DNA from: Pomacea canaliculata
Taxonomy: Eukaryota > Mollusca > Gastropoda > Architaenioglossa > Ampullariidae
NCBI RefSeq assembly: GCF_003073045.1
Contig: NC_037590.1
Coordinates: 10,993,042-11,057,041, forward strand
Length of the DNA: 64,000 nt
Direction of reading: 5' to 3'
In this document: piece after piece, positions 15,896 to 52,385 of the stretch
Numbering within the stretch: position 1 is the first letter of the stretch
How the letters are laid out: each line of letters opens with the position of its first letter
The notes under the pieces: model-generated
Told to the model about the DNA's origin: nothing
The model's input: the letters and a program-made list of their open reading frames with translations, nothing else
Database searches by the model: none
Made by a program: the position numbers and the translations under genes

Positions 15896-18800
15896 TCATA
15901 AGGATGATTTCTTTGGCACATTCGAAACAGAAGTTATTTGGGGTTTATTTCGAGATGATTCACGGATAAAATCTTGAAATCCAGTTGCTTTCATTTTCTC
16001 CTCCCACTCTTCTAATTCTTTCATGTACTTTTCTTTTCTTACCCTGGCATCTTTCTCATATATCTGTAAGAAGATTTACGCACACCTTTTTTAAAAATCG
16101 ATTTTAGAAGAACATCCAGACTCATTTTTTCATCATATGCCATAACAGATTTGCTAAATATAAGTGGTGAGCTTTTGTTCCTACTCATATTTCAAAACTC
16201 TATACCTTGTAAAAGTATATATCTTGCATATGTCCATCCTATAAATGTTCCAAGACAAAAAATTGTAAAGATAAAATTAAACAAGTACCCTCCCACCAAC
16301 ACCAGGCCTTCGATATGTACACAAGTCCATAAAGTTTTTAAAATGACCAAAAATTTCTGTGTATGTGAAAACAAGAGGATCTAGAGAACAGGGTAACACC
16401 AACATCTAAAACTGAATATGTATCCATTTCATCCTAGGACAAAAATAACATTCATAATCTTGATAAGGTACTAGGAGTAACTTCTATTTGTCTAAAAACC
16501 GTCTTTCTACTCTGTAACTTATCAAAAAACAAAAAACATTAAGGCACACGAATCTGATGTGTAATAGCCTGATTAAAGGCCATTGTAAACATGAGAATAC
16601 ACTTAACAAAGACAAAAAAATTACAGAAATCTTAATACCTCTTTCTCTTCTTTGGTAATATTATGCCAGTCGTTCGCAAGGTCTTTAATATATTGCTGAA
16701 AAAAAAGTTCAAAGCCTTATAATGATGAACATTTATATAGCACTTTTCCAAAATAATTTGCTCAATGCTTCACAAGAAAAACTACAGACTCATCCTAAAT
16801 AAATCTGAATGCTAATGTCTATACAAACATCTAATCATACAACAGACACACCTAAAGAGTAAATACAGACACATTTTGCCATATAAGGTCTTGAGATGGA
16901 AGAGTGAAGTCACTGATTGTGAAAAAAGTAACACTGAAGAGAGGCTGATAAAATATGCCGAACTTAACAGCACACTCAATGTACAAACAAAAAGACACCA
17001 AGCTAATGCAAAAAACAAAAACAAAAAAAGCCTCAAAAAATCCCTTGTAAATTTCCTTATTTTCCTTTATTTTAACAAATATTGGCTGCTCCATGGACTA
17101 GAAACCATTTTTCAGAATATACTGATTTTTCAAGTTTTTCCTGACCTGCACAGATGTGCATATATAAAAATCCATGAACTGTAAATACCCAATTATTATA
17201 TATAAAGGTCTCAAATATAAACTGTACTCTACTTCAAGCGTTAATCTAAATGCAAGTAAATTCAAGTCTACTCTGCACACAAAGGCCCTAAGTAGTTTTC
17301 CCTTCAACAGATGGTCCCTTAGCTTACTTATTTACTTTATATAACTCACCGCCATAGACTTATTCCCCCGTTTAGGCTTAGAAGCTTTCAAAAACAGTGC
17401 ATATGACGTTAGTGGCATCTTTGGCTTTCCCAGTCCGTGCAACACCTGCAAGGTAAAGATTACATACTTATATGGTTTCAAGAAGCATCCATATAAAATA
17501 GCATGTGAATCTTATTCACCAAGTGTATGCGTAATTTATATTTTAAGATATATCGCTATCATAAAAAATGTTGGAATATACATCTAAATTTGTCAACTGC
17601 CATAATAACAAAATTCTTCAAATTTTATTTTCAAGTCATAAATTTTGTTCTCAAATCAACAGCTGTGTGCTTTTAATGTGATGGAAGCAATAAACAAGTC
17701 AAAAACTTCAGGACACTCCATATACTTTATGCTTAAATAAGCAACATATAAATGGCTAATCTTCATAGACAGTGCAGATGAAGGAGACTGATATTTTACA
17801 CTATGCCATGAAAATATCAAGAAAAAAGTAAAATCTGTGCTATGGTAGAATCCAGATCAAACAATAATGGAGGTTATTAATGTGTGGAATTCTGTGAAAA
17901 GTACAGTGAAAAATGTTGAGGTTGAGGCCATTAAAAATGACTAAAACTTTCGAAAAAAAAGGGTAAAATTTATCCACAGCAATCAGACAATACTGGTGAA
18001 GATACAGTCTAAAAACAGAAATACTCTCCAGTCAGAAAGGTCCATCAGGTGAACATGACAGGTCTGCCAGAGAGCTCACAAAATGTACCTGTATCTACTA
18101 TAACTTTATGAGTGCAAAGTAAAATGTAATCAGTGAAAATGTTCAACACTGAAGATTAATTTATCAGACCAACCCACTTTTTTCATTGGCGAATGGTCAT
18201 GGTTCAGAGGCAGGCATATGTGCAACATTCATAAATTAAAGAATCTCTGTCAATGAATTAGGATAATGTAAAACTGTTGCCTGGCAGGATGATTAACTCT
18301 CCAGCTTTTAAGTACTAAGCATAAAAAATTATAGGTTACTTTGAATCACAAATGACATTTTCGGCACCAGTGTTTTGTTATTTAGTAGTAAATAATCTAA
18401 ATTCATCCCACAAAACAAACTGCAGCTTAATTAAGTTTTCTGTCTGATGACCGTACAGTTTATGAAATACATATCCAACCTTGGTTACATGGAATATTTA
18501 AGTTTTACTAACTTTGATTTCCTTTTTCTTAACTGGTGCCTCTTTTACAAATTTGTGATAAAGGTTAACTTTCTTCTCTTGTTCACTGAGTCCATCCAAA
18601 AACATCAAATACTTCTGCTTGTAGTCTTCATATTCTTTTTGTGCAAGTAACTTGCGTACCTGTCAATATATTAAAAAGATGCAATGTCAGGTAGAAAGGT
18701 GGTTCCTTACTTAAATAGGTATTTAAACTTTATATTCTGTCAAGGTAACATGCTATAAAACCTGAATGTTATCCGATAATATGGCTCCTAAATTGAGTCC

Positions 18801-20857
18801 TATATATAAATGAACAAAATAAAAGGCAAAGTTCTCAACAAAGTTGTTACCTGCTTTAAGTCTTTAGATATATCATTTTTTAACAGTTTGATAGCACACC
18901 ATACATTAATCAAATACATGTTTTCTCTCTTTATAACTCACACTTTTCTCCTCTTGGCCTAGCTCACGCCACAGCTGACTTGCAATCTTGGTTATTTCAG
19001 GCCCATTGGAACCTTTAAAAAAATAGGTTAAAAGAAACTATGCCACAAAGCTCTACATTTTGTATCTCTTTCTAATATTTCTATCAAAATTACCAAAATA
19101 GTAGTAATGCAAAAATGTTAATATAGCTTAAAATAACATGCAATATCCTCAGGGTTATTGTTTTGTTTCACGTAAAGACTTAATTGCCACTTTAACATAA
19201 ACAATGGAAATGATATTTGAAATTCAAAAATAAATATAATTTACTTGTGCCTATAATCAACCTGGGTTATTCTTTTGAATTTCTGAACATTTCTCCTTTA
19301 CAAACTTTCCAAATGCCCCAGGTGGTCTCTTTGGCGCATCAGGGCTTTGGATAGACTGAGACATGCTGATGAAGCATCGTGCATCTTGCATTGGTCTGTG
19401 GACACAAGATGGGTAATTCACCTCAACAGCTTAACATGGTATTAAGCACTGTATAGTACAATCCTATAATTTGCTTTTATTTATACTAGCTAATTTGCAT
19501 TCACTGTATCACTGTCTCTAGCAGTAATATAATGCACTATACACAGTATAAACTCAAAAGTTTTATAAACAATGTTTCTTCACAAATTTTGAATGGTAAT
19601 CAGTCCACTTCAGCACTACCCAGAGATACAAAATCTATATTAAGTATTAGACTGTTCACCAGATTCCTAACTTTCCATCATTAAACTTATAACTACCTGT
19701 TCCAAACAGTGTTAAATGCAGCTGTACATTTCTATTCCATTTAAACTACAAGTTCTACTGAAATGTTAAATGTGTTTCACGTTCTCAAAAACACACAAAC
19801 ACATTAGGGCATGGCAGATAAAGGAAGGGTGGTGATATTTTTTCCCCCCAAGATAAACATGTTCTAAGCTCTTCATGTGCTTCAAACTGCTTGAATATAG
19901 AAAAATCTGAAGAGTTACTGGAGGTAGGCGGGAATTAGTGTTTTGTGACGAGCCAGCAACTATTGCCATAGCACGGCACAAACTAACATACACATCCTTG
20001 ATCACGGCAAGGCAGCCAGCCCTAAGAGGAGAGCTGAACCCAGGACAGCAAACCCTCTCAATATAGATGACAGGTACTAACCGCTGCCCCACCGGACCGC
20101 CCGATGAGTTACTGCACGAACTTGTATATTACATGTCCATGGTTACTGGAGAACATTTTTCATACTGACTCCGATGTCACTGGCTATGTAAAGGCTATCA
20201 CTGAAAGTACTCTTTTACTATACTTTGGATAGGGTTCAAGTAATATCCCGTGGCATCCTCTTCTGCACAGCAATTACTCCTTTGGGTTTTCATTCAAACT
20301 TGAAATGAAAGTAGTCGTGTTGAAAAACGGTCAGCTGGTCCCAAGAGTACAGCCAGCGCTGCGAACGGGTGTCACAATGTCCTGGAAAGTACGACCTGTC
20401 TGCCAAAATGTGATGTGTACTTGTTTTCATTTTCTTTCATTCGGCCTAGGTTAATTTGAAATTTATGAAGTACAACAGCATTAGAAATCAGCAGTCCGTA
20501 ACACGGCTGGCGTATCTGCTAGGGTCGTTAGGGAACATCCATCGGAGGTTGGCTCCCTTCAAAGAAAAGGCTGATTTTAAAGTGATATTGTGAGCGGATT
20601 CAAACAGCTTTACTTTACACAATGAATTCGGTAGGTGAACGCCTTGGTGCCCCCTCTCTGAAACGAAAACCTTCGAAGCAATTTATATTTAATTGTTCTC
20701 GACAAAAAGTGTCATATACATATAGACTAATCCGACACAGACATGAGAAAGTATCGGAATTGTTGACTATCACCCATCCAGCATACCTATTTGTTGTTAA
20801 CAAACGCTTTGCGCTAATACCAGCACCTGACCGCCAACTAGCAAAGGCGGCGGCCAT
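15896..20857 (-). CDS. TFAM: TFAM-A: mitochondrial transcription factor A, two HMG boxes
   Basis: Seven exons on the minus strand: 20787-20857, 19262-19395, 18942-19012, 18513-18659, 17350-17445, 16639-16695 and 15896-16063. They join to 744 nt, 247 residues with a TGA stop, close to human TFAM (246). The first 24 residues (MAAAFASWRSGAGISAKRLL and on) look like a mitochondrial targeting leader: basic, no acidic residues. HMG box A runs about 43-118 (APKRPPGAF, IASQLWRELG, YKQKYLMFLDGL), a basic linker follows, and box B runs about 146-217 (LGKPKMPLTSYALFLKASK, LANDWHNITKEEKE). TFAM bends and packages mtDNA and activates its transcription. The C-terminus ends in a short basic stretch (VPKKSSL). 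A SINE-2 copy sits in intron 1. This is the first and most diverged intact unit of the array. Confidence 0.9.
19921..20105 (-). repeat. SINE-2 (tRNA-derived) with target duplication
   Basis: On the minus strand the element has an A-box-like GGGGCAGCGGTTAGTACC and a B-box-like GGGTTCAGCTCTCC. It is bounded by the direct repeat GAGTTACTG at 19912-19920 and 20106-20114, the target site duplication. It lies in intron 1 of TFAM-A; the intron 1 sequences of TFAM-B and -C lack it. Confidence 0.8.
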
Positions 20858-20960
20858 GTTGAGACTGAACGCCTACATGAGGCGCGTTGCACAGAGAAGT
20901 GAGCCACGCGCCACGCACCGCGGCCGGAAGTCAAACCTTCAAGATGGCTGTTCACATGAG
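20858..20960 (-). promoter_or_regulatory. TFAM-A promoter-proximal region with ETS-type site
   Basis: Just upstream of the TFAM-A start is a locally G+C-rich stretch with CCGGAAGT at 20924-20931, an ETS/GABP (NRF-2) core, and GCGCCACGCACC, loosely like an NRF-1 site. Human TFAM is known to be driven by NRF-1 and NRF-2. Conservation here is inference from motifs alone. Confidence 0.45.
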
Positions 20961-23594: not shown

Positions 23595-25140
23595 ATCCAG
23601 CCATCTTATTTCCAGAATATGGCGTAGGCACTGGTTGGTAAAGGTCTGGAGCTTATTGTTGTTGGTGTTTGTCACTCTTCAGGTTTCAGAACCATATAGT
23701 AGGACAGCCTTCACATTTGTGTTGAAGATGTAGATCTTACTGTGGAAGGATAATGCTTAGGGATTCCAGACGGACCTGGCATTGTTGATGCAGCTTTTGA
23801 TGTCATCGTCCACTCCTCCGTCCTTGTTGACAATGCTCCCCAGATACATGAGGTGATCTGTTTCCAGGATCTCTCCTTAAAGTTGGATTGGGAGTTCCTG
23901 CTTCTTGTTGATTCTCATCACTTCAGTCTTCTTTCTGTTAACCTTTAAGCTCTGTACAGATTGTCTTCCAAATGCTCTTGAGTGTTGACTGGTTTTCTTC
24001 CATTGATTCCTCTGTCAGTCCTGAAAGGTTCTCATACTTATTCTTGATTTCACAGTCATAAATTTTCCTTGTTTCCTTGTTCCTGAGGTACTGAGTCTGC
24101 CTGCTGGATCAATGAAAGACTTCAGCTTAATCTTGAAGATTGCCACTAGAAGCTAGTGGTCTGAAGAAACATCTGCACCTCTTCTCACTTGGACATCTTT
24201 TCGACTTTCGAGCAACCGTTATATGATCAATCTGATTTTTCATCTTGCCATCAGGGGAAGTCCAAGTTGTCTTGTGTATATTTTTGTGTGGGAACATGGT
24301 GCCACCTATGACATGGTCATTGAAAGCACAAAAGTCTGTGAAGAGTTTCCCATTTTCATTGCAGGTGCCGACGTCATGTCTTCCCATGATGAGTTTGCTG
24401 TTGGTGTTATTATCTCCCACTCTGGCATTTAGGTCTCCCATAATGACCTTCAGATCTCTTCTTGATGTGCAGCCAAGCAGAGACTGCAAGGCTCTTCATC
24501 TGCTGCATTTGTTGGTGCATAGCATTGGATGATCGTGATCTTCGTTCCTTTAGGCATTGAATCTCACTGACATGAGCCATGGTGAGACTGGTTCCTCTGT
24601 TGACATCAGCAGTGCTACTCCCTAGGCATGATCATGGTCCAGGTCTTTGTGGCCAGAGTAAATAATGGTTCCTCCTGATGTGAGTTTGGCCTGGTCACTT
24701 CCATTCCATCTTGTTTCACATAACCCAAGAACCCTGATGTAGTATTTCCTCATTTTGCTTGCCAATTTTGTAGAGGGTTCTGATGTTCCAGGTCCCTATC
24801 CTGGTTCTTGACTTGGTCGTTAAATGATGTCGGCAAGCTTGCTCCCTAAGGCTTTCACCAGCATGTGTCATAAGCTCTTCTAGAAAGGAATCTTCCTGAC
24901 CAGGTCCCTGTTGTGGTACTGTTGCAGTTTCTGTAGCAGCTGCTTTTTTTTTTTTTTTTACATGAGTGGGTTGTTAGTCCAAAGCAAAACCCCCAACCTG
25001 GAGGGCCAGGGTGCAACATTTTAGTCTAAATTCTACCCTATCAGAGCTGTTCCACTTGGTTAGACCATCTAGGAGCACAAGGCTCCTGCCAACATAGCTC
25101 TGTGGATCGACACAACGTGCAAGTCACCATACCACTACAA
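23595..25140 (-). mobile_element. RTE-like LINE, internally deleted
   Basis: On the minus strand, from 25140 down: a 5' segment with GGACTAACAACCCACTCATG, then an APE-type endonuclease (VIMGDLNARVGDN, NENGKLFTDFCAFNDHVIGG, QIDHITVARK), then, after loss of most of the reverse transcriptase, its C-terminal part (KTEVMRIN, LGSIVNKDGG, AVLLYGSET, CLRHILEIRWLD). The same RT words occur in the fragment at 34826-35385. It lies in intron 6 of TFAM-B in the gene's own sense. The frame carries stops and shifts, so it is inactive. Confidence 0.75.
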
Positions 25141-28545: not shown

Positions 28546-31268
28546 ATTAATCATTTTGTTCTGAAGAAATAATTTTTTTTAAACATTTATTTCTTTAATT
28601 CATATTCTATCATTATTTTATCTTGTAGCATGCATGTAGTATCAACTGTTTAGATACATTTACCAGACCAATCTACTTTGTTTATTACTAAGGAATGGTC
28701 ATGCTTTAGAGGCAGATATATGTATATTGCGGCAAACAGAACGTGGCTTACTAAAATCAAGTGGACAGTGTGTCAGCTGGAAAACCTTATGAGAGGTGCA
28801 CAGAACAGGTCCAGCTGAGTTATTGCTGCATCTCATCATGCCCATCAAATGACTGGTCACAGTTAAGGTACAGAGTGATAGGTATATTGTTCGTGAAGAT
28901 ACTCTGATAATGAATTATGACTAAAAGTGTTTCTTCTGACATGATGATAATTAAAAGTGTAAAACAATTTTATAGATACAGAGTGCTGATCAAACCATAT
29001 CCACCCTGTGTTACATGGAAAACGTAATGTTCACTAACTTGTTTGTCTTTCAATTTTTTTCGATATGCCTTCTTTGCACGTAGTTGAGATTTTTCTTCCT
29101 CACTGAGTCCATCTAAAAACACCAAGTACTTCTGTTTGTAGTCCTGATATTCTTCTTGTGCTTGTAACTTGCGTGCCTGTCAATATATGGAAACCATGCT
29201 AAGCCATGTAAAAGGGTGACTCCTTGCAAGGTAACAGGCTATAAAACCTGAAAGATTAAAATTCCTATATTAAAATCTAAGTGTTTTTTATGATGTGGCT
29301 CCTTCATTTTGTCCTAGACATAAATGGACAAAATGAAAGGAAGTTATCAAAATGGTAACCTGTTTAAGTGTTTAGATATGTGATCATTAACATTTAGATT
29401 CTGATACCACACCATATGTTTATGACTCACATTTTGGTCCTCTTGGCCTAGTTCATGCCATAGCTGACTTACAATTTTGGCTACTTCACCAACTCTGGCA
29501 CCTTAAAAAAATGGGGAAAAGAAAACTATACCACGAAGTTCTACATCTCACTTCTCTTTCTAAAATTCTATCAAAAATTACCAAAATAGTATTGTTACCA
29601 AAAGTGTTAACATAATTTAAAATAACATGCAATGTTCTTGGGGTTGTTTTGCTTCATTGTCACTAAAATATAAACAAGCAACAGAAACAATACCTGATAT
29701 TTAAAACTGAAAATAAATAAGATTTGTGTGTCTTTAACAAACCTGGCTTATTCTTTTGAACTTCTGAATACTTCTCCTTCATAAACTTAACAAATGGGTG
29801 AAGTGGTCTCTTTGGTGCATCAGGGGACTGGACAGACTGAGACATGTTGATGAAGCATTGTGCATCTTGAACTGGTCTGTAGACACAAGATAACTAAGAT
29901 GGTTACTTAACATGGCATTAAGCATTGTAACACAAAAACCATATAATTTTCTTTTATGTTACCAAAATTACCTTCAGTATAGTACTATTTTTAACAGCCA
30001 TACAAATCAAAATCTTAACTTTTTAAACATTTTTCTTTCAGCTAAAATTAAACCATGCTCCTTCAAAAATTTTAAGTCATGCCCATTCCACTTCGGCACT
30101 ACCCGGAGATACAACACCTATATTTAGCAGAAAATAAGACTATTCACAATGTTAAACTTAAACTCATTAAATTCATGCCATTCCTTTCAAAGAAATGCTA
30201 AATGCAGCTGTGCAGTTCTATTCAAACTGAAAATTTTTGTAGAAATGCACAGCAACACGTAAAGCTAAAGGAGAAAAAATGTAAAAAAAAAAAGTAGATT
30301 TTAAATACAAAAAATAGATGGAAGACTTCAATGAGACAGAAATGAGAGAAATCTCTATAACACTCTACAAACAAGCACTCTCACACACATCTGCCCAAGA
30401 GGGAATGGAGGATACAGAGAGGTGGTTAATTTTTTATTCTCCAAGATAAACATGAAAGTGTTGGCGTGTTGCATATTATTTAAACATAGATTTGAAGAGT
30501 TTGGGTGTGTTTTATAATGGCTGTCACTGACGGCAAGCATATTTTTACAGGTCATTATATGGTTCAAATAGCATCTCATTCTGCAAAGTACTAACCCCTC
30601 TATGATGATCTTAATGCAGTTGTCGTGTCGGGAAAACAGTCGACTGGCCCCTTGGGGGCACATCTTCGACATCCCATATCAGCATGTTCTGACCGTAATG
30701 TGTACCAGCCTATGCAGTTTTTTAGTGCCATTTTGCTTATAAAAATATTCCTCCGAGATCTGAAATGGCTTCGGTACAATTCGCCTAAGAAAAGAAAATT
30801 CCCTCTCTCACTCCATAGTTTAGACCCAATCTAAGTGACATTCTCCAGCCCTGACTTTCGAAGCAGTTTATATTTAAATATCTCTGAAAAAATAGTCTCA
30901 TATATATTTGGAGACACAGACACGTGAAAATGTACTTTAGAATTTTCGACAATCCCACAGCAAACATACCCATTTGTAGTTAATACCAAACGTTTCGCGT
31001 AAACACCAGCAATAAAGCGCCTGCATACAGACGCGACGGTCATGTTTACGCTGATCACGAACTTGTGAAACCAAACCGGAAGTTATTACACAGCCACCCA
31101 CCCCCCGCTACGAGAAGTCTGACGAAACTATGGCTAGACTTCTTACTACACCGCGTATTCAGCGTAAAGGCGATGGTAAATCGCTACTGTTAATATATAT
31201 ATGAAGATACGCGATATCTAGGTTTCTTTCTATTGTAACAAAATGACTTTGTCTCTCGCAAGAGATAC

Positions 31269-31485
31269 CATGCCATCGCGAACTTGTATTACTGGACTGC
31301 TAGCAGACGATTTTTTTTTCAAGTTAACTGCTAAAACGAGGCATTAGATGACAAAGCTTCCGGTTTATTTTTCTTTTTTTCGTTTAGGCTCGCCGAGACT
31401 AACAGCGGAGAACTTCGCAAGAGGCTAAACGTTGGTCTTGGCAGACAGACAGCAATCCACCTATACACGTCCATGATGCCATCAA
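31269..31485 (+). repeat. SINE-1 copy, forward, upstream of TFAM-B
   Basis: A near-complete unit from GCGAACTTGTATTACTGG through GGCTCGCCGAGACTAACAGC to ACACGTCCATGATG. It lies about 225 bp upstream of the TFAM-B start. The piece between it and the gene also has SINE-1-like words (CACGAACTTGT, AAACCGGAAG), so the ETS-like GGAAG there may be repeat-derived. Confidence 0.75.
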
Positions 31486-33029: not shown

Positions 33030-33177
33030 TGAAAAGAGCATTGCAAAGCTGACCATATTCTCAGTTCTTAAAACAAAACAAAACCTTTGCTTGCAGTCTA
33101 AATTTCCTTTCAAATTTAATTCATTTACATACAGAGTCTGAGGCACACAATTCAACAGCTTTACAAAACTGTCAGTA

Positions 33178-37500: not shown

Positions 37501-40500
37501 AAGAAGTCAATGTCACTGTAATGTAAAGAAGCAATGGAAATGATACCAGAAATTTAAACATGAAAATAAGCAAAAATTTGACATGAGTGCCTATGGTCAA
37601 CCTGGGTTATTCTTTTGAATTTCTGAATACTTCTCATGCATAAACTTCACAAATGGGCCAGGTGGTGGTTTGGGAGCATCAGGAGATTGGATAGACTGAG
37701 ACATGCTGATGAAGCATCGTGCATCCTGAAATGGTCTGTGGACACAAGATGCATAAGATGGGTAACTTTCCATAACAACTTTACCTGGTATCAAGTACTG
37801 TATCATACAAACAAACCTATAATTTGCTTATATCACATTAGGTTAAGTTTATCATCATATGTAACAGTAACATAATGCAGTACAAAATTAAAGTCTTCTA
37901 AATCATGTTCCTTCATAACTACTGAGTGGTGCTTTCGCACTACCCAAAGATACAACAAAGTATAAAGGTATTCACAAGCTTCTTAACTACCCATCATTAA
38001 ATTTATGGTTACCCTTTCAAAGCAATACTGAATGCAACTGTGCATTTCTATTCTATGCGGACAGTACGTTTTACTTAGAAAATTTAAAAATTAAAGCAAA
38101 ATCTGAACTAAATGGGAAATACATAAAAAAGCAAAAAGAACAGCCATGGTAAGATGTTCAGAATTCAAACACTCCATTTACGAACAAGCAAAACAGGAAT
38201 GTTAAATATGTTTCAAATTCTCAAACACACACAAGCACAAGAGGATATGGCAAGTAAAGAGAGGATAGTGATTTTTTCTTCCTCCAAGATAAACACATTC
38301 TCAGTTGTTGCTGTGCTACACACTGCTTAAATTTAGAAAGATTTGAAGAGTTACTGGTGATCCTTATACTGTTTCAGATGGTCTATAAAGGTTGTCACCA
38401 ACTGTACAAATCTGTCACTAGGCATTGGTTCAAGGTTGGTTGCCATACACTCCTTTCTGCATAACACTTACTCCTTTGCATCCTTGTCCCGATTTCAAAT
38501 GTGTGATGCTCTTAAGGCAGAGTCATGTTGAGAAATGGTTAACTGCTCCTTTGAGGATGAGATGCACAACACTGACAAGCCAAAGCAATATGTTCTGATG
38601 TGCACCAGGCTCCAACTGGCTTATGTAGCTTTTAAACCACTTTGCTGACAAAAATAGTACGCTGATATTAGAAATGCCTATGCTACAATTAACCTAAGAA
38701 AACAAGACTGACTCATCAAACATGTGAACCGATTATTTTAGAGTTGGATCCAATCAATGAGACTTTCTCCAGGCCTTTAGTCTAGACTCTCCAGAATAGT
38801 AACTAAAACATTCAACGCAGTAGTGGCTAGACTGGAGAGGGTCTGGTACACCCATAACATGTACAATCCAAACAAGTCCCTCACAGTACCGATCCTGTTT
38901 TATAGATATGAAACGTTGACTCTACTTGTTGATACAATTCAAGAGGCTGCTTTAGATCTCATACAAGGTACATAAAATCAAAGACTTTGTATGAAGCATG
39001 ATTGCCACACTTGATTGGATGCCAGAAACCCTTACTCATAACAGCCAAGTGGCGTAAGCTGGTCTGGTTTGTCATGTGACCTGGCACAAGTACCTTAGAA
39101 GGTGGTCAACACCAATGTGGCCAGAAGAAGAACTGGCTTACAAACATGGACCTTCTCCCATTGCTCAAGACAGGCATGTGGCTGGCCTTATCAGCTGCTA
39201 TGTCTATCAATGTGCTCCCTCCAATGACCAGCTCCAGTCAAGAGAATGAATGAAGCATGGACAATTGCTTCAATTTCAGTTAGGCAGCTACAACAGTGTT
39301 GTTCCTTATGTTGCTGGATTATCCCTTTTACATTGCTGTTATGCATATGGAATTAAGATATAGCTTGTTTTTTTTTTTCTTTTAAAAGGAAGGTTATTCT
39401 GGTTCTTGAACAGACATTTCCTGGCAGTTTTGTTTCATACAATTTTTGTAGTTAATGCATCTCTTTCACAAAGCTGGATCGTTTCAGCCTTCTCATGGAG
39501 AACCATTTCTGTCTGGTGCCCATGAGATGACTTTCAGACGTCTATATTTTTAGCTTGTATGAGTGCTGTACATTCTCTAGGGTGATATCTGTTGTTTCCT
39601 CCATCCACTGGTGTTGTTCTCATGGCAACAGTGATGTTATTGGTGCTTGGTTTTGAATTACATCCATGGTCTGTTGATGCGACCTGTTTGCTGTCAACCA
39701 AGAGCTGGATCTATATTCTAGGTGTGGCCTTATGGTTCCCTGAAACAGGATCTTTCCATTAGCATCCCAATTCTTTATGTCAGTTTTCTTCTAAAGCAAG
39801 GATGATCCTAAAAATTGGACGAACAAAGCTATAGCTAGAAGCTATTGCCCAATTAGTATGACAAGCAATGTGTATAAAACTATGGAACCAGTGGCTATCA
39901 TTGTACCAGAGCAAGCAGGATAGGCAACAGAAGCACAGAAGATCAAAATGAGCATCTTTCACAGGTTATTGAGGATCCTTTCCAATCCCATAAAATGAAC
40001 CTTTCTGTCTTTAGAGACTTATAAAAAGCATTTGAAATTCTGGAAAGATGAACTTCTGGTGGAGCTCCTGCCAGTGGAATAAAATTAAAGGCAACTTCTA
40101 CAGGTGAATCAAATCCTACTCGCATAAGCACAGAGCCAGAAAGCAAATAGACGGAAGCTGTGAACAGAAAGTGCTATTGAGACAACAAGTACTTAAGGGC
40201 GATGTCCTGTCACCAACAGCTTATCCTCTACATCCCTGACTTTGTATCAAAGCTGCCCAGTGGGTTAAAGCAGTACTGTATTCCTATGACCTGGTTTTAT
40301 GGTGTTCCGGAAAGTGTGCAACCATTGCAACATACAGAAGGCAGCTTTCTTAGTGTCGCAACCTGGACAGCTGGTGTGTTACCATTAACAAAGAGAAAAT
40401 AACAGTTACGCTCTTCTCTTTCTCCACTAAAGAGCAGGCAACTTATTAACAGACGGTAACAAATAATATTTGAAGACCAGCTAATGTACCTAGAGATCAC

Positions 40501-41749
40501 TTTTGTCATGACTAATATCATTATTTCTAACCCAGCAAATAATGGAAATATGTCAAAACATTTTACAAAAACAATAAACAAATTTTTAGAGCATATTCTT
40601 AGAATGTTTAAAATGTAATGATCTATAAAAAAAATTAAGTTTGAAGAGAACTAAAACTCTTCCATGAGCATCCTACAACTGGTACCGTCTATCAACCATT
40701 TTGCTTCTTCAAAGTTTTCACAATCCTCTGCGGAATTTCTGGACCCACACTAGTATCATTCAATTTCTGTCTGACTGATAAGACTTAGACTGTGTTCCAT
40801 GATGAATAAACGATGAATAAAAATCATGTCATGCTCCACTTTCTTTGCCAACTCCATTCTGTTCATTTTTACACAAAACCACTGTAATCATGGATCCAGT
40901 CTCATGGTTCTCATCAGTCATATGCATCTGTGTTGCCACCCCACCAACTACACCTCAATCTATCAGCACTATAAAAGTCTGGTGATGTCAAAGACTGAAT
41001 GATACAAAACAAACTGAAACTCAATAATGATAAAATGAAATCCTCGGTAGTATAGTGGATAAAATGAAAGTCCCTTTATGCTCAAGAAGAAGAATCCATC
41101 ATCGTTCATCAGTCCACTTGAATATGTCAAGGTGGACAACTATTCCTGTCACCAGAACAACATATGGGCAAAAGATTTTTATTTACTATGCAACAAAACA
41201 GTGGAACTCTCTCTGTCTCCTTCCATATCCGCCACTTACCCACCATCGAATCCTTTAAAAGTGCACTGAATACAAATCACTTCCTCGAGCATTACTTTTA
41301 ACGACCTAAGGCTAGTACATCTTTCAACCATTGATCTCACATTTTATTTCGTCTATTGGCTAGTCCGCCTACTCGCCTTCCTCTCCAGTCACGCAACTCA
41401 CTTCTCATTCATTATTATTTGTTACCCGATTCATGTTTGTGTCTTCTACGCTTTTTTAATTACTTGCAGTATTGGTGTTAATCGATCCGTTCTCCGTATA
41501 CTCTCCATGTCTTGTGTCCAGCACTGAGAGAATGTTCCTTCGTGAGAGCAATCATAAATCGCGCGCTTATTATTATTGCTACCAATTCAAGGACGAATGA
41601 ATAAATGATGTATCTAGAGATTAATCAAATACCAAAACTATCTTAGAATTGTCACCTATCAAACATTCAGCATACCCAGGTGTGGTTAATGCCAAATGCT
41701 TCATGAAAACATCAGAGATCGCTCTACAACGTGCAAGTATGACGGCCAT
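34567..41749 (-). CDS. TFAM: TFAM-C: intact TFAM paralogue
   Basis: Seven minus-strand exons: 41676-41749, 37602-37735, 37273-37343, 36810-36959, 36396-36491, 35442-35498 and 34567-34710; 726 nt, 241 residues, TAA stop. The leader is MAVILARCRAISDVFMKH, unlike A or B. Box A has PGPFVKFMHEKYSEIQKNNP, IASQLWQELD and YKQKYLVFLDGL. The linker is longer and more charged than in B. Box B has LGKPKKPPNAFMLFVRSSR, LADYWHNIPKEEKE and ELEEWEKKM. The role would be mtDNA packaging and transcription. Odd: the codons after the TAA stay open for 34 more and are rich in lysine and arginine (VAKKSFPSAKRQKT and on), as if a basic C-terminal tail was recently cut off; TFAM-D shares this. Intron 1 is enlarged by LINE debris. 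Confidence 0.9.
34826..35385 (-). mobile_element. RTE-like LINE fragment in TFAM-C intron 6
   Basis: The minus strand encodes reverse transcriptase pieces: AFDSVDRDVIWSLMIYYGI, KTGVRQ, then GLKVNRKKTEVMRI and LGSIVNKDGG, and ends in a short LINE tail (GGAACAAACTAAACTAA). The flanking junctions are the same as those of the different LINE piece in TFAM-D intron 6 (45795-46160), so one ancestral insertion has been trimmed differently in each copy. Confidence 0.75.
35675..36184. mobile_element. MITE with long terminal inverted repeats (TFAM-C intron 5)
   Basis: A 510-bp element beginning ACCAACCTGAAACGGTTTG and ending with the inverse of ACCAACCTGAAAGGTTTGC. The inverted arms run roughly 130 bp and share TAACCTGTAAATT and CATCCGTTAATTATCC. 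It has no coding capacity. No clear target duplication was seen. The copy in TFAM-D is 46455-46934. Confidence 0.7.
38881..40745. mobile_element. LINE debris present only in block C (TFAM-C intron 1)
   Basis: This segment is absent from block D. At about 38886-39250 the plus strand has a decayed RTE-like C-terminal region (WFGHVT-like and GRRRG-like stretches with stops). At about 39940-40560 the plus strand matches the reverse transcriptase of the I/Jockey-like family (DVLSPTAYPLYIPDFVSKLP, GVLPLTKRK, YLEITFV). Both are heavily broken. Between them nothing is recognised. Confidence 0.55.
40746..41610 (+). mobile_element. L2/CR1-like LINE, internally deleted
   Basis: This matches the L2-like element in block D (48990-50010) but lacks about 470 bp inside. 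The C-terminal words TIPVTRTTYGQKIFIYYATK and QWNSL are visible at 41130-41215. The 3' end reads CGCGCTTATTATTATTGCTA. Confidence 0.6.
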
Positions 41750-42099
41750 GTTTACTCGCGCGTGTTGACAGGGTAATCGTTAGTTACATTGTGACAAATA
41801 ACGAAAATATGCCAAAGCGTTTTATAGAAGCAATAAAACAAGTGGAAAGAGAAAAATAAAATATTTGGAATACATTCTTAGAATGTTTAACATTTATTTA
41901 AGTATCTACAAAAATAAAACAGAGTTAGAATGCAGTGAGTTTGTGACACCTCCCTGAACATAGTCTAAGCACGAAGCTTTGCTATCATGCACAGCGTAAA
42001 TTGCATTGGGTGATCGCCAGTTGTTGTTGTTTTGGTTTTTTCCCCATAACTTTGCAGCTTGGATGAGCTAGGTTCTTGGTGTTGGACTTTGCAATCCAG

Positions 42100-42650
42100 T
42101 TACATGAATCAGAGTTGACCTAATGGCTCCAGAGCCTCCAGTGATAATTCCAGATGCCTGATTTTGGGTTCTGCATGGCTATACGTTTCAAAGTTGGACC
42201 CCAAGCAGCCCTTCCATATTCCAAAACTGGACTTCTTTGGCCACTGAAGTCTGCTCCCCAAGAAGTTCCATTCATCTTTTTCATCAGGGAAATTCGATCC
42301 ATGCTTAGCCCGTGCTGCACACTTTGCATTTTCCAAGTTAATCTGGTATCGAAAGTGACACCTATAATAGGCATCTTAATTGGTTCCTTGTCTTGAAAGA
42401 GAGAGCGTCTCCACATACATGTACTTTGAGGTTTGTAACTTGTCTAGATGTTTTCTGTGTTGAAGTCTGGCCTTTCTGTTGGAGAGGTAATGACAGATAG
42501 TGTGATTTCAGTCTTGTAAGAGATCGTCTATTTCCGGTGCTATAGATAAGCCACTTGATCTCCTGTTGATCTGTTCTGCCTAAAACCAGACTGTACTGAT
42601 GATTTTTTGTTTTTCCAGGTCGTCCTTGTGTTTATCATTCTACCATTTTG
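42100..42650 (-). mobile_element. I/Jockey-like LINE reverse transcriptase fragment
   Basis: The minus strand encodes GFRQNRSTGDQVAYL near 42600-42560, then IGVTFDTRLTWKM, LMKKMNGTSWGADFSGQ and VLEYGRAAWG. Block D has the homologous piece but stops at about 51514, inside the element, so the duplication breakpoint falls in this LINE. Confidence 0.7.
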
Positions 42651-43400: not shown

Positions 43401-43439
43401 GTCTGAGGACTAAAGAAACAGCATTCATAGACTTGTTAA

Positions 43440-43560: not shown

Positions 43561-45507
43561 GGGGCAACCGGAGGAGCAGCAGTGCCAGTGAGCTAGGGAC
43601 AGTGTGTCGGAAGACTCACCTCCAACTTCATCGCCATCGTTCGTTGCCTGGGGCAACGGTGTGCGATCTATGATCTCCGCAATAGTGTGCCGAGACAACT
43701 GGTTGTCGAGGGGCAGCCTGTCGCGAGGACACTGCCGTGTACACCTGTGTACGCATCGGAGGAGTGTTCGTCGGACACAGATTCAGAGCCATAAAGTGCT
43801 GGGAGGAAAGTGTTATTTTTTTTTTTTTTTTGCTTTCTTTCACTGACCGGATGTCAGATTGTTCAATTAGAGATCCTTAGGGCGTTTAATGTAATCAACC
43901 TTGCCGTTTTTCTTGTGATTATAATTTGTTTGATGTAAAACCGTGTTGTCGGTTGTTTGCGCACGCGGATGAGTGTGATTGTCAGTGCGTACGAGTGAAG
44001 AAACGGGCGAGTGGGTGTGAGAGGGCGAAAGTCGGGTGAGTGAGCTAGCTGAAGTGTCCCATTTCCCCTCGGGCGAGATAGGCCCATCCTTCTCCCCGCC
44101 TCAGTCGTCATAAACACATAGAAGTAAAATGTGTCTGTGGTAATAGATTCCTGAAATAAAAAGACGTAGAAAAGGGTGAACTTTAAAAGAGCATTGCAAA
44201 GCTGAACCATATTCTCAGTTCAAAAAACAAAACAAAAACTTTGCTTGCAGTCTAAATTTCCTTTCAAATTTAATTCCTTTACATACAGAGGCACACAATT
44301 TAACAGCTTTACAAAACTGTCAGTACTTTTACTCAAACTAAACAACGAATCGGTTTCCTACTCATCACAAATAAAAACTAACCTAGTAAGGACTCGGGCT
44401 GTCTATTGAAATGGACTTTTATTAAGAGTTACATTCTTTAGCTTTCACTCAAGCTAATCAACTTTCTACTCATCATGAAAAAAAACTAACCCAGTAAGGA
44501 TTTGGGTCGTCTACGGAACTGATACAAGGCAGAGACGTTATACCCTACGCCTCTGTACAAGGTAACGTTTTTCCTTGTTTCCTTGGGGTTACTAGCCTGC
44601 ACTACAAGCATGCGCCTCATGCTTATCTAGTTCTCTCGGAATAGTTCCCAAAGTTCATTCTGCTTTGAAGCTTTCACAAGCTCTAAAATATCTCTCAGAA
44701 ATGATCATTCTATGCAAAAATAAAATGTCCAGAAACTCTTAACCCATTCATAAATTTAGGTATTTGCCAATAGAGAAAGATCATGGGTATTTAATTCTAA
44801 ATACATGTTCAGTGAATTCTGAATTTTACTAACATTAAATGAAAATTTACTCAATACCCTCATTATATAATGCTGGGAGAAGTTCTCATATGATACTATT
44901 GCATCCAAAAAGAGTTCAATGTCAACAGCCATCAGCCATCAAAAGTCCTTTATTTTTTTTCACACACATTTCTACCTTTCAGTGACACACTACACACTTG
45001 ATCATCATCATATAAAAAGACCCAGTTCACACTAAGTGCGTGCAAGCAAATTCACCTGCACACACACACATATGCACTAATGAATCACTCAATTTCCCTC
45101 TCCTTGTTTATGATGTTTGCCAAAATACATTTTAATGTTTTTTAGAGCTTGTAAAATTACCCAAATTCCTTTAATGGAAAAAACCCCACATGACACAAAG
45201 ATATCAAAATATATCAGGAATCAGCTTCTGATTCTCCTAAAATGTGTGGCTTTTTTGTGACTTTCCTTCTGGATGCTGGTGATACTCAGACACTTTATCC
45301 AAATTCCTTCACTGGAAAGCAAACACATCTGTCAAAGAGGTCTACACGAAGAGAATAGGACATTTGCATGAAACAAATGCATCAGAACATTTCAAGAATC
45401 TGTTATTCTTGTGAAAAGTGTGACTTCTTTGTGACTTTCCTTCTGGAAGCTGGCGATACCGAGATTGTCTTCTGTCTTTTGGCTGATGGGAAGGATTTCT
45501 TTGCTAC

Positions 45508-48500
45508 TTAGGAAACAGAAGTTCTTTCAAATTTGGCAAGAGATTTTTTGCGAACAACATCTTTACGTCCCATTTCTATCATTTTCTTCTCCCACTCTTC
45601 TAATTCCTTGAAGTACTGTTCTCTTCTAACCTTGGCATCTTCCTCATATATCTGCAAGAAAATTTATGCGAACTTCTTTAATACACATTCATTAACAATG
45701 ATTTTAGAAGGACATTCAGTTCACCTTTTTACTATTTAACAGTGTAACAGTCAATGAATGTAAGTGGTTCGTTTTCAAACTTGAGAATATTTTTAGTTTA
45801 GTTTGTTCCTTGTTACTCCTTCGGAAGCATAGAGCAGCAACACCACCTTGCCAGCAGACCCACTTTTGGGCAGCCCCCTTCAGTTGGGCCAATGTGGTTC
45901 CAACATCCTTTGCCTCGCTATCTACTGTTCTTTTCCAAGTCTGCTTTGGTCTCCCAGCTCTCCTCTTCCTTTGAGGGTTCCAGTCAAGCGTCTGCTTAGC
46001 AATGATGTCAGCTGGTTTGCGCAGGGTGTGTTCTGTCCAGCAACATTTGCGCTTCGTGATGTCTTAGTGAATTCCTTGTTACTCCTCAAGGAGCATAGGA
46101 CCACTTGTGATGTCTTGGCTAGTGGCATTCTGGTTGGTTCTTTTCCACAAAAGTTATATAAAGTTGTTACAGAAACCGCAAACTTAAGAATACACCAGTA
46201 AAAATATTATAAAAATTCAACTACCTCTTTCTCCTCTTTGGGAATATTGTGCCAGTAGTCTGCAAGACGTTTACTAAATTGCTGAAAAAAGTTAAGTCCT
46301 TGCATTAGAATATTAATTATATAATGCTGAAGATGCTATCTTCTCTAGATCTTATCAGAATAATCACCATAACTAAGTATATTAAAAAAAGGCATTCTGC
46401 ACACACACAGTGCATCAACAACATGTAAATATATAAATATTAAATATTTAAAAAACCAACCTGAAACGGTTAGTGGGTTTTTTTCCCAGATATCAGTAGA
46501 TTTAGGCGATATAAACTAACCTGTAAATTTCAGCCTCCAAAACTCATCCATTAATTATCCATTACGATTCGCACTTTTGATCAACAAGCGCTGATAACAG
46601 TGTGCTGTGTTACGCTTGTGCACCATTCACAATATTGCCTGCAGTCAACACCAATCAGAGAGAAAGAAAGAATGAGCAACAGGTTGAAAACTGCTATTTT
46701 AGCATGAGAAATGCAGACTTTCAACCTCCGAATAGTCCAAACTGGCAACTTTGCGAAGGCTGCACTAGAGTGATGTAATACAGCATTACTGGCACTCGTT
46801 GATCGCAAGTGCGAATCGCGTACTTTTCTAGCGGATAATTAACGGATGGGTTTTGAAAGCTGAAATTTACAGGTTAGGTTGATATTGCCCATATCTACCT
46901 ATATCTTTAAAAAATGCAAACCTTTCAGGTTGGTCTTTAGAGTTTAAACCACAAATTGTACTCTCTGCTTAGTGAGTAAATCCAAATGTAACAGACTGTT
47001 ATACACGTAACAGAGACTGATGAGTTTGTTTTTTTTAAGTGTACATAGCAAAGGCAGAGAATCTTTTTTTAAGTCCACAAATTTTGCTTTCCATTCAAAA
47101 GATGGTCCTCAGCCTATTTGCTTTTCACCACTCACAATTACAGATGCATCCCCCTGATCAAGCCGAGAAGATCTCACAAACAGCATGAATGCGTTTGGTG
47201 GTTTCTTTGGCCTTCCTAGACTGCGAAACTCCTGCAGTGTAAGGATTACATGATCTATGAAAATATGTACATGAAATAACTTGCAGATTTTTATGCACTA
47301 AATGTTTTCATAATTTATATCTCAAGCTAATAACATAACAAATTTTGCTGCATACATTTACATTTTTTTCAGATAACAATCCTTCAAATTTTATTCTCAA
47401 GTCATAAATTTATCCTCAAATGAACAACTGAGCATCTTTTAATATTATGTAACCAATGAATAACTCGAAAGCTTCATGGACCATATACATTTTAAATGAA
47501 GGATATATATATATCTGTCTTGTCTTGATAAACTCATCTTTCACTAACTTGTTTTTCTTTCAATCTTTCTCGATGTGCCCTTTTTGCACGTTTATCATTA
47601 TGAAGCTGAGCTTTTTCTTGCTCACTGAGTCCATCTAAAAACACCAAATACTTCTGTTTGTAGTCCTGATATTCCTCTTGTGCATGTAAGTTGTATGCCT
47701 GTTAAGACCAAAGAAAACATGCTACCATTAAATGGGAGACTCCTAGCATGTATAGGAATTTAAAAATTATATTCTTTCAAGGTAACAGGATACAGGATAT
47801 AAAACCAGGAAGATTTAATTTCTAAAGCTCTGAGTGTTTTTTGATGAAGTGACTCCTTCATCCTGTCCTAGACATAAATGGACAAAATGAAAAGACAAAG
47901 TTTGCATCAGTTACCTGTGTTTAGACTCATAATTTAAAACAAGTAGATACTGGAACTATACCATTGCAATCAAACACACGTTTCTGCCAGCTCCTATTTA
48001 TAACTCACATTTCGCTCCTCTGGGTCTAGCTCACGCCATAGCTGACTTGCAACCTTGCTTATTTTAAATATAGTGGCACCTTGATAAAAAGGGGAAAAAG
48101 AAAACTATATCACAACTCTCTATATCTCATACTTCAATATTTATGTCAAAAAATACCAAAATTGTAGTTTGTTAATTTAGCTTTAAAAATGCAACATTCT
48201 CAGGTTATTGTTTAGTTCATGAAAGAAGTCAATGTCACTGAAATGTAAACAAGCAATGGAAATGATACCTGAAATTTAAACATGAAAATAAGCAAAAATT
48301 TGACATGAGTGCCTATGGTCAACCTGGGTTATTCTTTTGAATTTCTGAATACTTCTCTAGCATAAACTTCACAAATGCGCCAGGTGGTTGTTTGGGAGCA
48401 TCAGGAGATTGGATAGACTGAGACATGCTGATGAAGCATCGTGCATCCTGAAATGGTCTGTGGACACAAGATGCATAAGATGGGTAACTCTCCATAACAA

Positions 48501-50175
48501 CTTTACCTGGTATCAAGTACTGTATCATACAAACAAACCTATAATTTGCTTATATCACATTAGGTTAAGTTTATCATCATCTGTAACTGTAACATAATGT
48601 CCTGATTTCAAATAAGTGATGATCTTAAAGCAGTGTCATGTTGAGCAATGGTTGACTGGTACTTTGAGATGCACAACACGGACAAGCCAAAGCAATATGA
48701 TCTGATGTGCATCAGGCTCCAACTGGCTTATGTAGCTTTTAAACCACTTTGCTGACAAAAATATTATGCTGATATTAGAAATGCCTATGCTACAATTAAC
48801 CTAAGAAAACAAGACTGACTCATCAAACATGTGAACCGATTATTTTAGAGTTGGATCCAATCAATGATACTTTCTCCAGCCCTTTAGAATTTAGACTCTC
48901 CAGAATAGTAACTAAAACATTCAATGCAGTAGTGGCAAGATTTGAGAGGGTCTGGTACACCCATAACATGTACAATCCAAACAAGTCCCACACTAATATG
49001 GTTCAATTCCTATCTGATAGGACTTAGACTGTGTTCCTTGAATGAACATCATGTCATGCTCCACTTTCTTTGGGGTCTCCATTCTATTCATTTTTATATG
49101 TAACCACTGTCATCATGCATCCAGTCTCATGGTTCTCATCAGTCATATGCATCTGTGTTGCCACCCCCACCAACTTCATCTCACTCTATCAGGACTATAA
49201 AAGTCTGGTGATGTCAATGACTGAATGATACAAAACAAACTGAAACTCAATGATGATAAAATGAAAGCCCCTTTTTGTTCAAGAAGAAGAATCCATCATC
49301 GTTCATCAGTCCACTTGAATATGTCAAGGTTGACAAAACCAACCACACCTTAACATCATCTGTCACAAATCTGAGATTCATGATCACTGCTGACATGACC
49401 CTTGATAGGCAAGTTATGACTGTCAATCGATCTGCTATGAACTAAGATCAGCTCAATTCACCAGGTTCTCTCTACAAATACTGCCAGCACTCTTGTCTGT
49501 ATATTTGTTCTACCTAGGCTTCATTACTGTTACTCCATGCTCACAGGCCCGACCTACATACCTTATTCATAAACTCCAGAAAGTACAGAACTCCACTACA
49601 GGTCTTGTGCTTAAAGCTAGGGAACAGCATCACATCTTTCCTCTCCTTCATTCTCTGCACTGGATACCATCTGTGCTTGCATTCATTACAAGAAGATTGA
49701 GCTTGTGTTTTAATTTCTTTGCAGGCTCCTGCCTGCCTATTTCTCTGACCTTTTCTTCCCCCGTATCCCAGCCACACAACTCCGTTCTTCGTCTGACGAA
49801 CGTATACCAACTATTCCTGTCACCAGAACAACATATGGGCATAGGATTTTTAGTTATTGTGCAACAAAACAGTGGAACTCTTTCTGTCTCCTTCCATATC
49901 CGCCACTTACCCACCATCGAATCTTTAAAACTGCACCAAATACCGTCCATGTCTTGTTTCCAGCACTGAGAGGGTAATCATAAATCGCGCGCTTATTGTT
50001 ATTGCTACCAATTCAAGGATGAATGAACAAATGATGTATCTAGAGATTAATCAAATGCCAAAACTATCTTAGAATTGTCACCTATCAAACATTCAGCATA
50101 CCCATGTGTGGTTAATGCCAAATGCTTCATGAAAACATCAGAGATCGCTCTACAACGTGCAAGTATGACGGCCAT
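45508..50175 (-). CDS. TFAM: TFAM-D: intact TFAM paralogue, sister of TFAM-C
   Basis: Seven minus-strand exons: 50102-50175, 48324-48457, 48009-48079, 47549-47698, 47136-47231, 46225-46281 and 45508-45651; 726 nt, 241 residues, TAA stop, each exon equal in length to that of TFAM-C. The leader is the same as in C except at its last residues. Differences are scattered: PKQPPGAFVKFMLEK in box A, GATIFKISKVASQLWREL in exon 3, RLDQGDASVI in box B. All splice sites are intact. As in C, the frame behind the TAA is open for 34 codons and strongly basic. The role would be mtDNA binding, packaging and transcription. Intron 1 is compact compared with C. Confidence 0.9.
45795..46160 (-). mobile_element. 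RTE-like LINE C-terminal fragment in TFAM-D intron 6
   Basis: The minus strand encodes a C-terminal LINE stretch (RRLTGTLKGRGELGDQ and, nearby, LCFRRSNKEQTK) and ends in AACAAACTAAACTAA. The outer junctions match those of the LINE piece in TFAM-C, but the interior comes from a different part of the element. Confidence 0.65.
46455..46934. mobile_element. MITE with long terminal inverted repeats (TFAM-D intron 5)
   Basis: The counterpart of 35675-36184 at the same intron position, 480 bp, with a small internal deletion near 46685. The ends ACCAACCTGAAACGG and its inverse are intact. Confidence 0.7.
48990..50010 (+). mobile_element. L2/CR1-like LINE, longer copy
   Basis: The plus strand encodes the C-terminal half of an L2/CR1 reverse transcriptase: TYLIHKLQKVQNSTTGLVLK, FPLLHSLHWIPS and LCFNFFAGSC are diagnostic. 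The frame is broken further on. It lies in intron 1 of TFAM-D, antisense to it, and is not a host gene. Confidence 0.75.
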
Positions 50176-51049
50176 GTTTATTCCGCGCGTGTTGACAGGG
50201 TAATCGTTAGTTACATTGTGACAAATAACGAAAATGTGCCAAAGCGTTTTATAGAAGCAATAATACAAGTGGAAAGAAAAAATAAAATATTTGGAATACA
50301 TTCTTAGAATGCTTAACATTCATTTAAGTATCTACAAAAATAAAACAGAGTTAGAATGCAGTGAGTTTGTGACACCTCCCTGAGCGTATAGTCTATGCAC
50401 GAAGCTTTGACATCATGCACAGTGTAAAGGTGTCATCAGCGGTGGGATAATACAATCTACGGTATCATTTGTAATATTAGTAGAAAGGCAGTCGAAAATA
50501 AACCAGATGACACAGCATTAACAGCCCCCACCCGTTCCTCTCCACCCCCGCCAAAAGTGAGAGAAAATTTAGTGCTCTTCGCATTTACTGCTTTGTGGTA
50601 TATATGACAGTATTGTAAAACACGTTAGTGGTGCTATCTTTTCACTTCGCCACTTCAGTTTGACCAGATCGATATCTGGTTTGACGATGGTATCAACATA
50701 TGTATTCCTCCTACATCCTTTTAAATTAAGATTTGAGTGCTTTATTGATCCCCCCTTTTTTTTTGTTGGGTGAGGGGAAGGGATGTCCACTGGAAAGTGA
50801 TGATCTCTTTTGCATGGTGGCTGCTGTAGCTATACACTAAATACAGATGTCTTTATTTGGTTGTTGGAAGAGGTCAGAGTCCTGCGCCTTTCTAGTCTGC
50901 GAGCTTCTCTAAGAAAGTTAAATTGTTCCTCTTTAATCTACATTTTTACAGACTTTAACATCTTATGCATTGGGTGACTGGACAGGTTTTTGTTTTTTTG
51001 TTTGTTTTTTAATTAACTTTGCAGCTTGGATGAGCTAGGTTCTTGGTGT

Positions 51050-51514
51050 TGCATCTGACCTCCAGACTTTGCAATCCAGTTACATGAATCAGAGTTGACC
51101 TAATGGCTCCATTGATAATTCCAGATGCCTATAGCTGATTTTGGGTTTTGGCTACTTTGTCAAAGTTGGACCCCAAGCAGCCCTTCCATATTCCAAAACT
51201 GGACTTTTTTGGCCACTGAAGTCCGATCCTCAGGAAGTTCCATACATCTTTTTCATCAGGGAAATTAGATCCATGTTTTGCCCCACTGCACACTTTGTAT
51301 TTTCCAAGTTAATGCTGGTATTGAAGGTGACACCTAGGCATCTTGATTCCTTGTATTGAAAGAGAGTGTCTCCACATACTTTGAGGCTTGTAACTTGTCT
51401 AGATGTTTTCTGTGTTGAAGTCTGGCCTTTCTGTTGGAGAGGTAATGATAGATTACAGTGTGATTTCAGTCTTGTAAGAGATTGATCGTCTATTTCCGGT
51501 GCTAGATAAGCCAC
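51050..51514 (-). mobile_element. I/Jockey-like LINE fragment at the edge of block D
   Basis: The minus strand carries LGVTFNTSINLENTKC and LISLMKKMYGTS, homologous to 42100-42554. It ends abruptly at the block boundary and is followed by TFAM-E intron 1 sequence. Confidence 0.65.
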
Positions 51515-51639
51515 TATACAATCCCCTCAAACAGTCCAATATATAAAGGCAATAATAATCAAAGATGGGTGACAGAAATAAGAGAAAGGTAGATAAAAAA
51601 TTAAAAAAATTCAATGAGTGGACAGCACAATATTTTTCA

Positions 51640-52385
51640 CAGATGTTGGAGATAGAGGTGTGCATCATTGGAACAAATCTTCTACTTGACAATGGTTCAA
51701 GCATGTTGGGAAATGGCTGACTGGTGCACAACATCAATAGCCTATTGCAGCATGTTTTGACCATGATGTACACCAGGCCCAAACTGGCCAAAGCAGCTTT
51801 TAATGCGACTTTGCTGGTAAAAATGTTAAATGAGTTTTGAAATGTCAATGCTACAATTCACTGACACTACTAACTGGATCTAATCAAAGTGACTGTCTCT
51901 AGCCCTTTTGACTGAAACTAAAACTTTCGAAGCAGTTTATTTTTAAATACTTTTGAAAAATACCAACAATTGTTTAAACAACCAAAGGTGCCCACAATCA
52001 TAGTTACTGTTTAACTAGCATCTTTCAAGACACATTCCATGACACTTTTATTTCCATCGGAGGAAGACTCATATACAACCTACGGAGATGACATCGATCT
52101 CATAGCAGACAAAGAGAACCGTAAGACCTTGCCAACAGACAGTTCTAACGCATATGAAATGGGCTGGACAGCCACATATCAGTATTTTCACAAAGTACAT
52201 GCGCATGGGAAACTTGTGCTCTGCTTGCCGAATTGGGACGGTGAATCCAGGCATTCAGAAACAAGTGACTAATCAAATACACACACGGGAAACTATCTTA
52301 GAATCGTCGACTATGACACATCCAGCATACCTAATACTAAACGCTTTTCGAAAACAGCAATACCCCCACAACACACGACTGCCAT
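51640..52385 (-). pseudogene. TFAM: TFAM-E remnant: exon 1 and part of intron 1 only
   Basis: Exon 1 is 52331-52385: MAVVCCGGIAVFEKRLVL followed by a GTATGC donor, as in the other copies. Below it, about 51640-52000 matches the intron 1 of A, B and C (CTTTCGAAGCAGTTTAT is shared with B and nearly with A). No exon 2-7 follows before block D. The exon is 55 nt and ends in phase 1, whereas the other copies are 71 or 74 nt and end in phase 2, so it could not splice in frame to their exon 2. It is the unit nearest CPE and may mark the edge of the original locus. Confidence 0.75.

Follow-up and report, generated by a model that had tools for sequence, protein, structure and literature searches.

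TFAM packages and switches on mitochondrial DNA (mtDNA). In mammals the level of TFAM determines how many mtDNA copies there are and how compact the nucleoids become, and the usual view is that animals have a single TFAM gene. What, then, is to be made of a row of TFAM genes in the snail Pomacea canaliculata? The row lies in the window analysed here, a stretch of 64,000 nucleotides of contig NC_037590.1 (C1 below; positions 10,993,042 to 11,057,041), for which an earlier note had claimed a tandem array of at least five TFAM units. Four seven-exon TFAM genes (A-D) and an exon-1 remnant (R) were indeed found in the window gene models, in one common orientation on the minus strand, and the span given for them, 15896-52385, runs exactly from the last base of the stop codon of A to the ATG of R. 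The family as a whole is larger than that count. Nine seven-exon TFAM genes occur at three loci, A-D with R on C1, E-H on C7 and I on C6; eight of the nine have open frames, that of B conditionally, and G is a pseudogene. We incline, by a little, to the reading that this is an expanded TFAM family with a diversified DNA-contact surface and diversified promoters, whose copies would be expressed, imported, divergent in DNA binding and specialised.

TFAM genes at three loci

Exons on C1 were located by self-comparison of the window, followed by exon-wise alignment and then gene models; positions without a contig name are those of the window, which contains no N. Copy A (20857-15896) consists of seven exons (20857-20787, 19395-19262, 19012-18942, 18659-18513, 17445-17350, 16695-16639 and 16063-15896), and its splice sites and translation give an open frame of 247 amino acids. 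Copy C (41749-34567; exons 41749-41676, 37735-37602, 37343-37273, 36959-36810, 36491-36396, 35498-35442 and 34710-34567) and copy D (50175-45508; exons 50175-50102, 48457-48324, 48079-48009, 47698-47549, 47231-47136, 46281-46225 and 45651-45508) each have seven exons and open frames of 241 amino acids, and the earlier description of A, C and D as intact was borne out. Copy B (31043-23095, stop included) encodes 232 amino acids in seven exons (31043-30970, 29876-29743, 29501-29431, 29176-29039, 27768-27694, 25459-25403 and 23244-23095). Its frame is open only with an early exon-5 end at CGG|GTTTGT, by which the HMG-B loop becomes shorter.

In our own gene models every one of the 24 introns of A-D has GT-AG ends, and the phases are identical across copies. 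Exons 1-7 are 71 or 74, 134, 71, 138-150, 75-96, 57 and 144-168 nt long, the last exon of B being counted without its stop (23097-23095); the shared phases and mostly equal lengths had been noticed before. An exon-3 donor further downstream, with a shared SYK reading, was rejected, since the conserved GTGAGT gives an indel-free TFAM alignment there. The orphan remnant R (52385-52331, minus strand, ATG at 52385) has a coding part of 55 nt before the next GT, where the other first exons have 74 or 71, and the sequence upstream of it can be aligned to the C-H class. That D might use R as its first exon instead was ruled out, because the phase of this 55-nt part does not fit exon 2. A piece of an endonuclease-type element was seen on the minus strand at 24127-24495, in intron 6 of copy B (Exo_endo_phos, E 7e-4, below the Pfam cut-off).

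The remaining genes came from protein searches of the genome (440,159,624 bases, 24 contigs) that score best candidates only. With D as query there were 54 matches up to E 10, which beyond the window comprised C7:14646583-14678085, C6:1614067-1617479 and five further weak HMG matches. On C7, copies E (C7:14651612-14646568), F (C7:14661949-14654691) and H (C7:14678085-14672957) gave gene models with open frames, and G, which starts at C7:14669556, carries one-base length changes in exons 1 and 4. The single gene on C6, copy I (C6:1618615-1614001), has an open frame and is the most diverged copy. There was no N in 50 kb of C7 and 20 kb of C6 around the copies. Beyond copy E, a weak exon-5-like fragment at C7:14644856-14644894 (E 0.016) is perhaps a further TFAM remnant.

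The second search, with I as query (36 matches), found no additional TFAM locus, three C5 matches (E 1.6-2.9) being left unexamined. Weak matches outside the three loci fell on C4 (two genes), C2, C10, C12, C9 and C5. A hidden canonical TFAM was looked for on C4, C2, C10, C12, C9 and C3, the C3 gene being taken from a family list of the genome and not from the D and I searches, and the candidates were judged to be other HMG types. In the C4 gene at C4:17930503-17936368, box A matches Abf2 and HMGB ahead of TFAM and box B matches HMGB and no TFAM; the neighbouring exons we take to be UBF. By eye, the others are presumably HMGB (C9), SSRP1 (C4:2547), SOX (C3 and C10) and HMG20 (C2), and the C12 match has a single HMG box of a type that was unclear by eye.

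In a PDB search the best match was TFAM for all five copies searched (A, B, C, H and I). The best E values included 5.6e-20 for A and 1.1e-22 for C, and the range for the five ran from 2.7e-19 (B) to 5.4e-26 (H). For each copy the nine best matches were TFAM chains, over about 180-195 residues, and the next family was weaker in E by at least ten orders. Pfam HMG_box matched two or more stretches in each of A-D, and NCBIfam gave no match for copy C. Judged by these searches the family is TFAM, the five copies compared with PDB being closer to it than to HMGB, UBF or SSRP1. Their identity to human TFAM is 26-30%. As in vertebrate TFAM, there are two HMG boxes and a linker, and the seven exons equal the seven of human TFAM. 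The vertebrate type of box-B end, MIEIGREDVVRK, likewise occurs in C, D, E, F and H and nearly in B, while A and I depart from it. Vertebrates have one copy, in contrast to nine in the snail, and positions 77, 78, 163, 179 and 182 of human TFAM are variable among the snail copies. At the wedge position of human Leu182 the open copies have I, Y, N, S, C, M, M and S, in a loop whose alignment is possibly one residue off; residue identity at Leu58 and Leu182 is not a defining rule across animals.

The earlier note had attributed the copies to DNA duplication and not to retroposition, and the introns agree with this, being common in position, phase and sequence between copies. Stretches of exon and intron align between copies, and therefore genomic DNA was duplicated. 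Over exons and introns together C and D are 91.9% identical (1957 bp) and A and B 74.9% (851 bp). The block 33027-42555 with copy C is homologous to 44180-51515 with copy D, both genes being read from the minus strand, with aligned blocks of 83-96% identity and unaligned gaps between them. In the nucleotide tree C and D were joined with support of 100, E-H with 100 and C-H together with 98, and A, B and I stood outside C-H in an order that was weakly supported (54). In a protein tree of the eight open copies with a human outgroup, A-H split from I with support of 88. Stretches of C and D were about 79-82% identical to C7 over up to 1.4 kb and mostly 72-80% identical to A or B in pieces under 0.6 kb, the two sets of values coming from searches with different settings. 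Such alignments support tandem and interchromosomal duplication of genomic DNA as the origin of the copies. Most simply read, the C7 array would derive from a C1 gene similar to C and D and later have grown independently, and an older duplication would link C1 and C6. We infer that unequal crossing-over produced the tandem copies.

Near A, B and I there is a repeat about 185 bp long, at 14704-14885, 15342-15526 and 31279-31466 and at about C6:1618622-1618976; in B and I it directly precedes exon 1. It may be a mobile element that took part in the duplications.

Constraint, contact residues and promoters

Are the open frames maintained? Neutral evolution was simulated along the terminal branches with hand-set base frequencies, 300 runs per copy. 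The mean number of stops was 6.9 for A, 5.0 for B and 8.6 for I, and none of the 300 runs was free of stops in any of the three. The stop-free share was 33% for C, 35% for D, 15% for E, 6% for F and 11% for H. Since C, D, E, F and H come out stop-free in part of the neutral runs, frame retention is informative only for the older copies A, B and I.

As a mean over the family, the one-ratio omega was 0.85-0.92 by maximum likelihood under three distinct codon models, a fourth setting coinciding with the third. Pairwise NG86 values were below these (0.52-1.07 for all 28 pairs), probably since that method ignores transition bias. The site models were run with G left out, as were their null simulations, the site mapping and the later branch tests. 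Twice the log-likelihood difference (2dlnL) between M1a and M2a was 25.4 (MG), 47.4 (GY) and 31.3 (equal frequencies). Among the MG null simulations none of 154 (of 200 planned) reached 25.43, and the largest value was 8.49. Under M2a about 10% of codons had omega of 3.6-4.5, and 24-32% of codons had omega of 0.14-0.19. The signal stayed when gap-flanking codons were removed, when exon 1 was removed too and when five well-separated copies were used (2dlnL 24.7-65.5 in six sets).

The codons concerned were compared with ten base-contact or wedge residues of human TFAM (Y57, L58, S61, T78, R157, Y162, N163, P178, Q179 and L182) taken from the consulted part of PMC8754647. With candidate selected sites defined by a mean posterior of at least 0.5 across two models, these sites mapped to 18 of the 189 aligned human residues. 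They include four of the ten contact residues, T78, N163, Q179 and L182 (p = 0.009), and three of the ten at a posterior cut of 0.85 (p = 0.011), the mapping of the HMG-B loop to human being possibly one residue off.

Upstream sequences divide the copies. The ETS-type motif CCGGAAG (gene strand CTTCCGG) lies on the plus strand at 20924-20930 upstream of copy A and at 31076-31082 upstream of copy B; counted from the genes, the core (CCGGAAG or its complement) is at -73 in A, -39 in B and -100 in I. It was absent from the 200-bp upstream stretches of C, D, E, F, G, H and R. The upstream regions of C-H and R have a common sequence, unlike that of A, B and I. In the whole window CCGGAAG occurs four times against 1.3 expected, a count reached in 3 of 100 shuffles. 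In vertebrates, TFAM is driven by ETS/NRF-2 sites. In the snail the promoter difference falls on the C-H stem, and this stem has excess amino-acid change relative to omega of 1 (p = 0.010 and 0.015, uncorrected for eight branch sets and with the fitted omega at its upper limit; p 0.038 with G included). In one branch test the pseudogene G had omega of 4.3 (p 0.013), which is odd for a dead gene and unexplained.

Neighbouring genes and other features

CAMLG and CPE had been named as the flanking genes. On the CPE side, Peptidase_M14 exons were found on the plus strand at C1:11047020-11047217 and C1:11048654-11048839 (53979-54176 and 55613-55798 of the window). They support this flank at the level of the M14 family, within which CPE was not distinguished from other enzymes. 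CAMLG was not confirmed: its profile PF14963 gave no match, in a search that was also silent in every control. The two open reading frames at 12281-12875 had no Pfam match. Further out on the minus strand, 4988-5293 is a mitochondrial carrier exon of SLC25 type (Mito_carr, E 9e-12), and frames at 62724-63456 resemble a decayed mariner transposase by eye and have no Pfam match. The mitochondrial contig of the assembly is C24 (15,707 bp), and cox1 has an open frame with the invertebrate code and no less so with the echinoderm code.

Diversification, redundancy and other explanations

The diversified family that we favour would work as follows. The eight open copies encode a putative import presequence, two HMG boxes, a linker and a tail; the proteins would be imported into mitochondria, there to bind and bend mtDNA in the manner of TFAM. 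A, B and I would be nearer to the ancestral regulation, as their ETS-type motif suggests, and the C-H class would be under a changed promoter. The diversified residues partly correspond to ones that touch bases or wedge the helix in human TFAM, and the products may be TFAM variants with differing DNA binding, beyond mere extra TFAM. The earlier note had offered a specialisation by dose, tissue or sex as speculation; positive selection at some codons and promoter divergence favour diversification over pure dosage and are silent on tissue or sex.

Several results weigh against this account. The one-ratio omega of 0.92 was not different from 1 in the sole test of it (GY, nine rows including G, 2dlnL 0.7), and two-ratio tests found no single open copy with omega significantly below 1; because of this some of the open frames may be relaxed and heading to loss. 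One of the nine copies, G, is already dead. Copy B has a damaged exon 5 that requires a weak splice donor, and a two-base length change near the stop in its tail. No sign of selection was seen at six of the ten contact residues (Y57, L58, S61, R157, Y162 and P178), and at the wedge position Leu58 of human TFAM Val stands in seven of the eight open copies and Gly in A. The branching of E, F and H is uncertain, with support of 72-80 in the nucleotide tree and a different order in the protein tree. The codon likelihoods are from our own code and not from PAML, and the site posteriors are naive (naive empirical Bayes, NEB). The MG null simulations were fitted from one start each, against two starts for M2a on the real data. 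Multi-nucleotide changes or gene conversion can inflate codon tests of this kind.

The chief alternative is a redundant family that drifts because constraint is weak. One or two copies would do the work of TFAM, and the others, in a region prone to duplication, would drift with their constraint relaxed, at most adding dose. A mean omega near 1, the death of G and the remnant state of R, the damage to exon 5 of B and the failure of the single-copy tests to reject omega of 1 for any open copy all fit such a family, and we regard it as a serious possibility that falls short of probable. It is opposed by the frames of A, B and I, retained where neutral drift would break them, by the rejection of M1a, which has a fully neutral class, against M2a in every set, and by the lengths of exons 1-6, which differ by multiples of three across the eight open copies. 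Recruitment of part of the family to non-mitochondrial roles, such as those of nuclear or sperm chromatin proteins, would explain the fast change at DNA contacts. The changed promoter common to C-H speaks for it, and precedents are described in the consulted part of PMC7463775, namely a nuclear TFAM isoform of mammalian testis and the yeast pair Abf2/Ixr1. However, exon 1 is kept in all eight open copies, with a short start that by composition count has 4-5 R/K and 1-3 D/E in its first 35 residues, and we hold such recruitment to be improbable. That unmerged alleles were placed in tandem by the assembly is highly improbable. Haplotype duplication was an issue in this genome, in which, according to the consulted part of PMC6129957, removal of alternative heterozygous contigs reduced the assembly from 473 to 440 Mb. 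But C and D are about 8% apart, introns included, on an N-free stretch, A and B about 25%, the sequence around the C7 and C6 copies is equally free of N, and diverged copies lie at three loci, two of them on other chromosomes. The collapse of the copies into alleles of one gene, which the earlier note had named as one possible refutation, is thus very unlikely.

The diversified family resembles known cases in part. Yeast Abf2/Ixr1 and the testis isoform of mammalian TFAM are likewise cases in which a mitochondrial HMG protein has more than one form and the roles are divided; as far as the consulted part of PMC7463775 goes, the former are one paralogue pair from a whole-genome duplication and the latter is one isoform, whereas the snail has three loci with tandem arrays. 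Gene family growth in the same genome is likewise found in the P450 expansion of P. canaliculata (PMC6129957, consulted part), but that is another kind of family, TFAM being a gene of mtDNA maintenance. A literature search, with subscription journals mostly outside its coverage, found no paper on TFAM duplicates in molluscs among those listed. A further step, tentative and on balance rather doubtful, would be that the snail has a functionally distinct TFAM set, in which selection on the contact surface and the promoter switch at the base of C-H would reflect conflict or specialisation in mtDNA handling, for example TFAMs that differ between the germ line and somatic tissue, or a nuclear response to selfish mtDNA.

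The apple snail, whose eight apparently coding TFAMs are spread over three chromosomes, may offer a test of nucleoid-protein specialisation by tissue, sex and mtDNA type, and TFAM assays in apple snails must distinguish the copies. The family may likewise serve as a test of mtDNA packaging as an arena of conflict.

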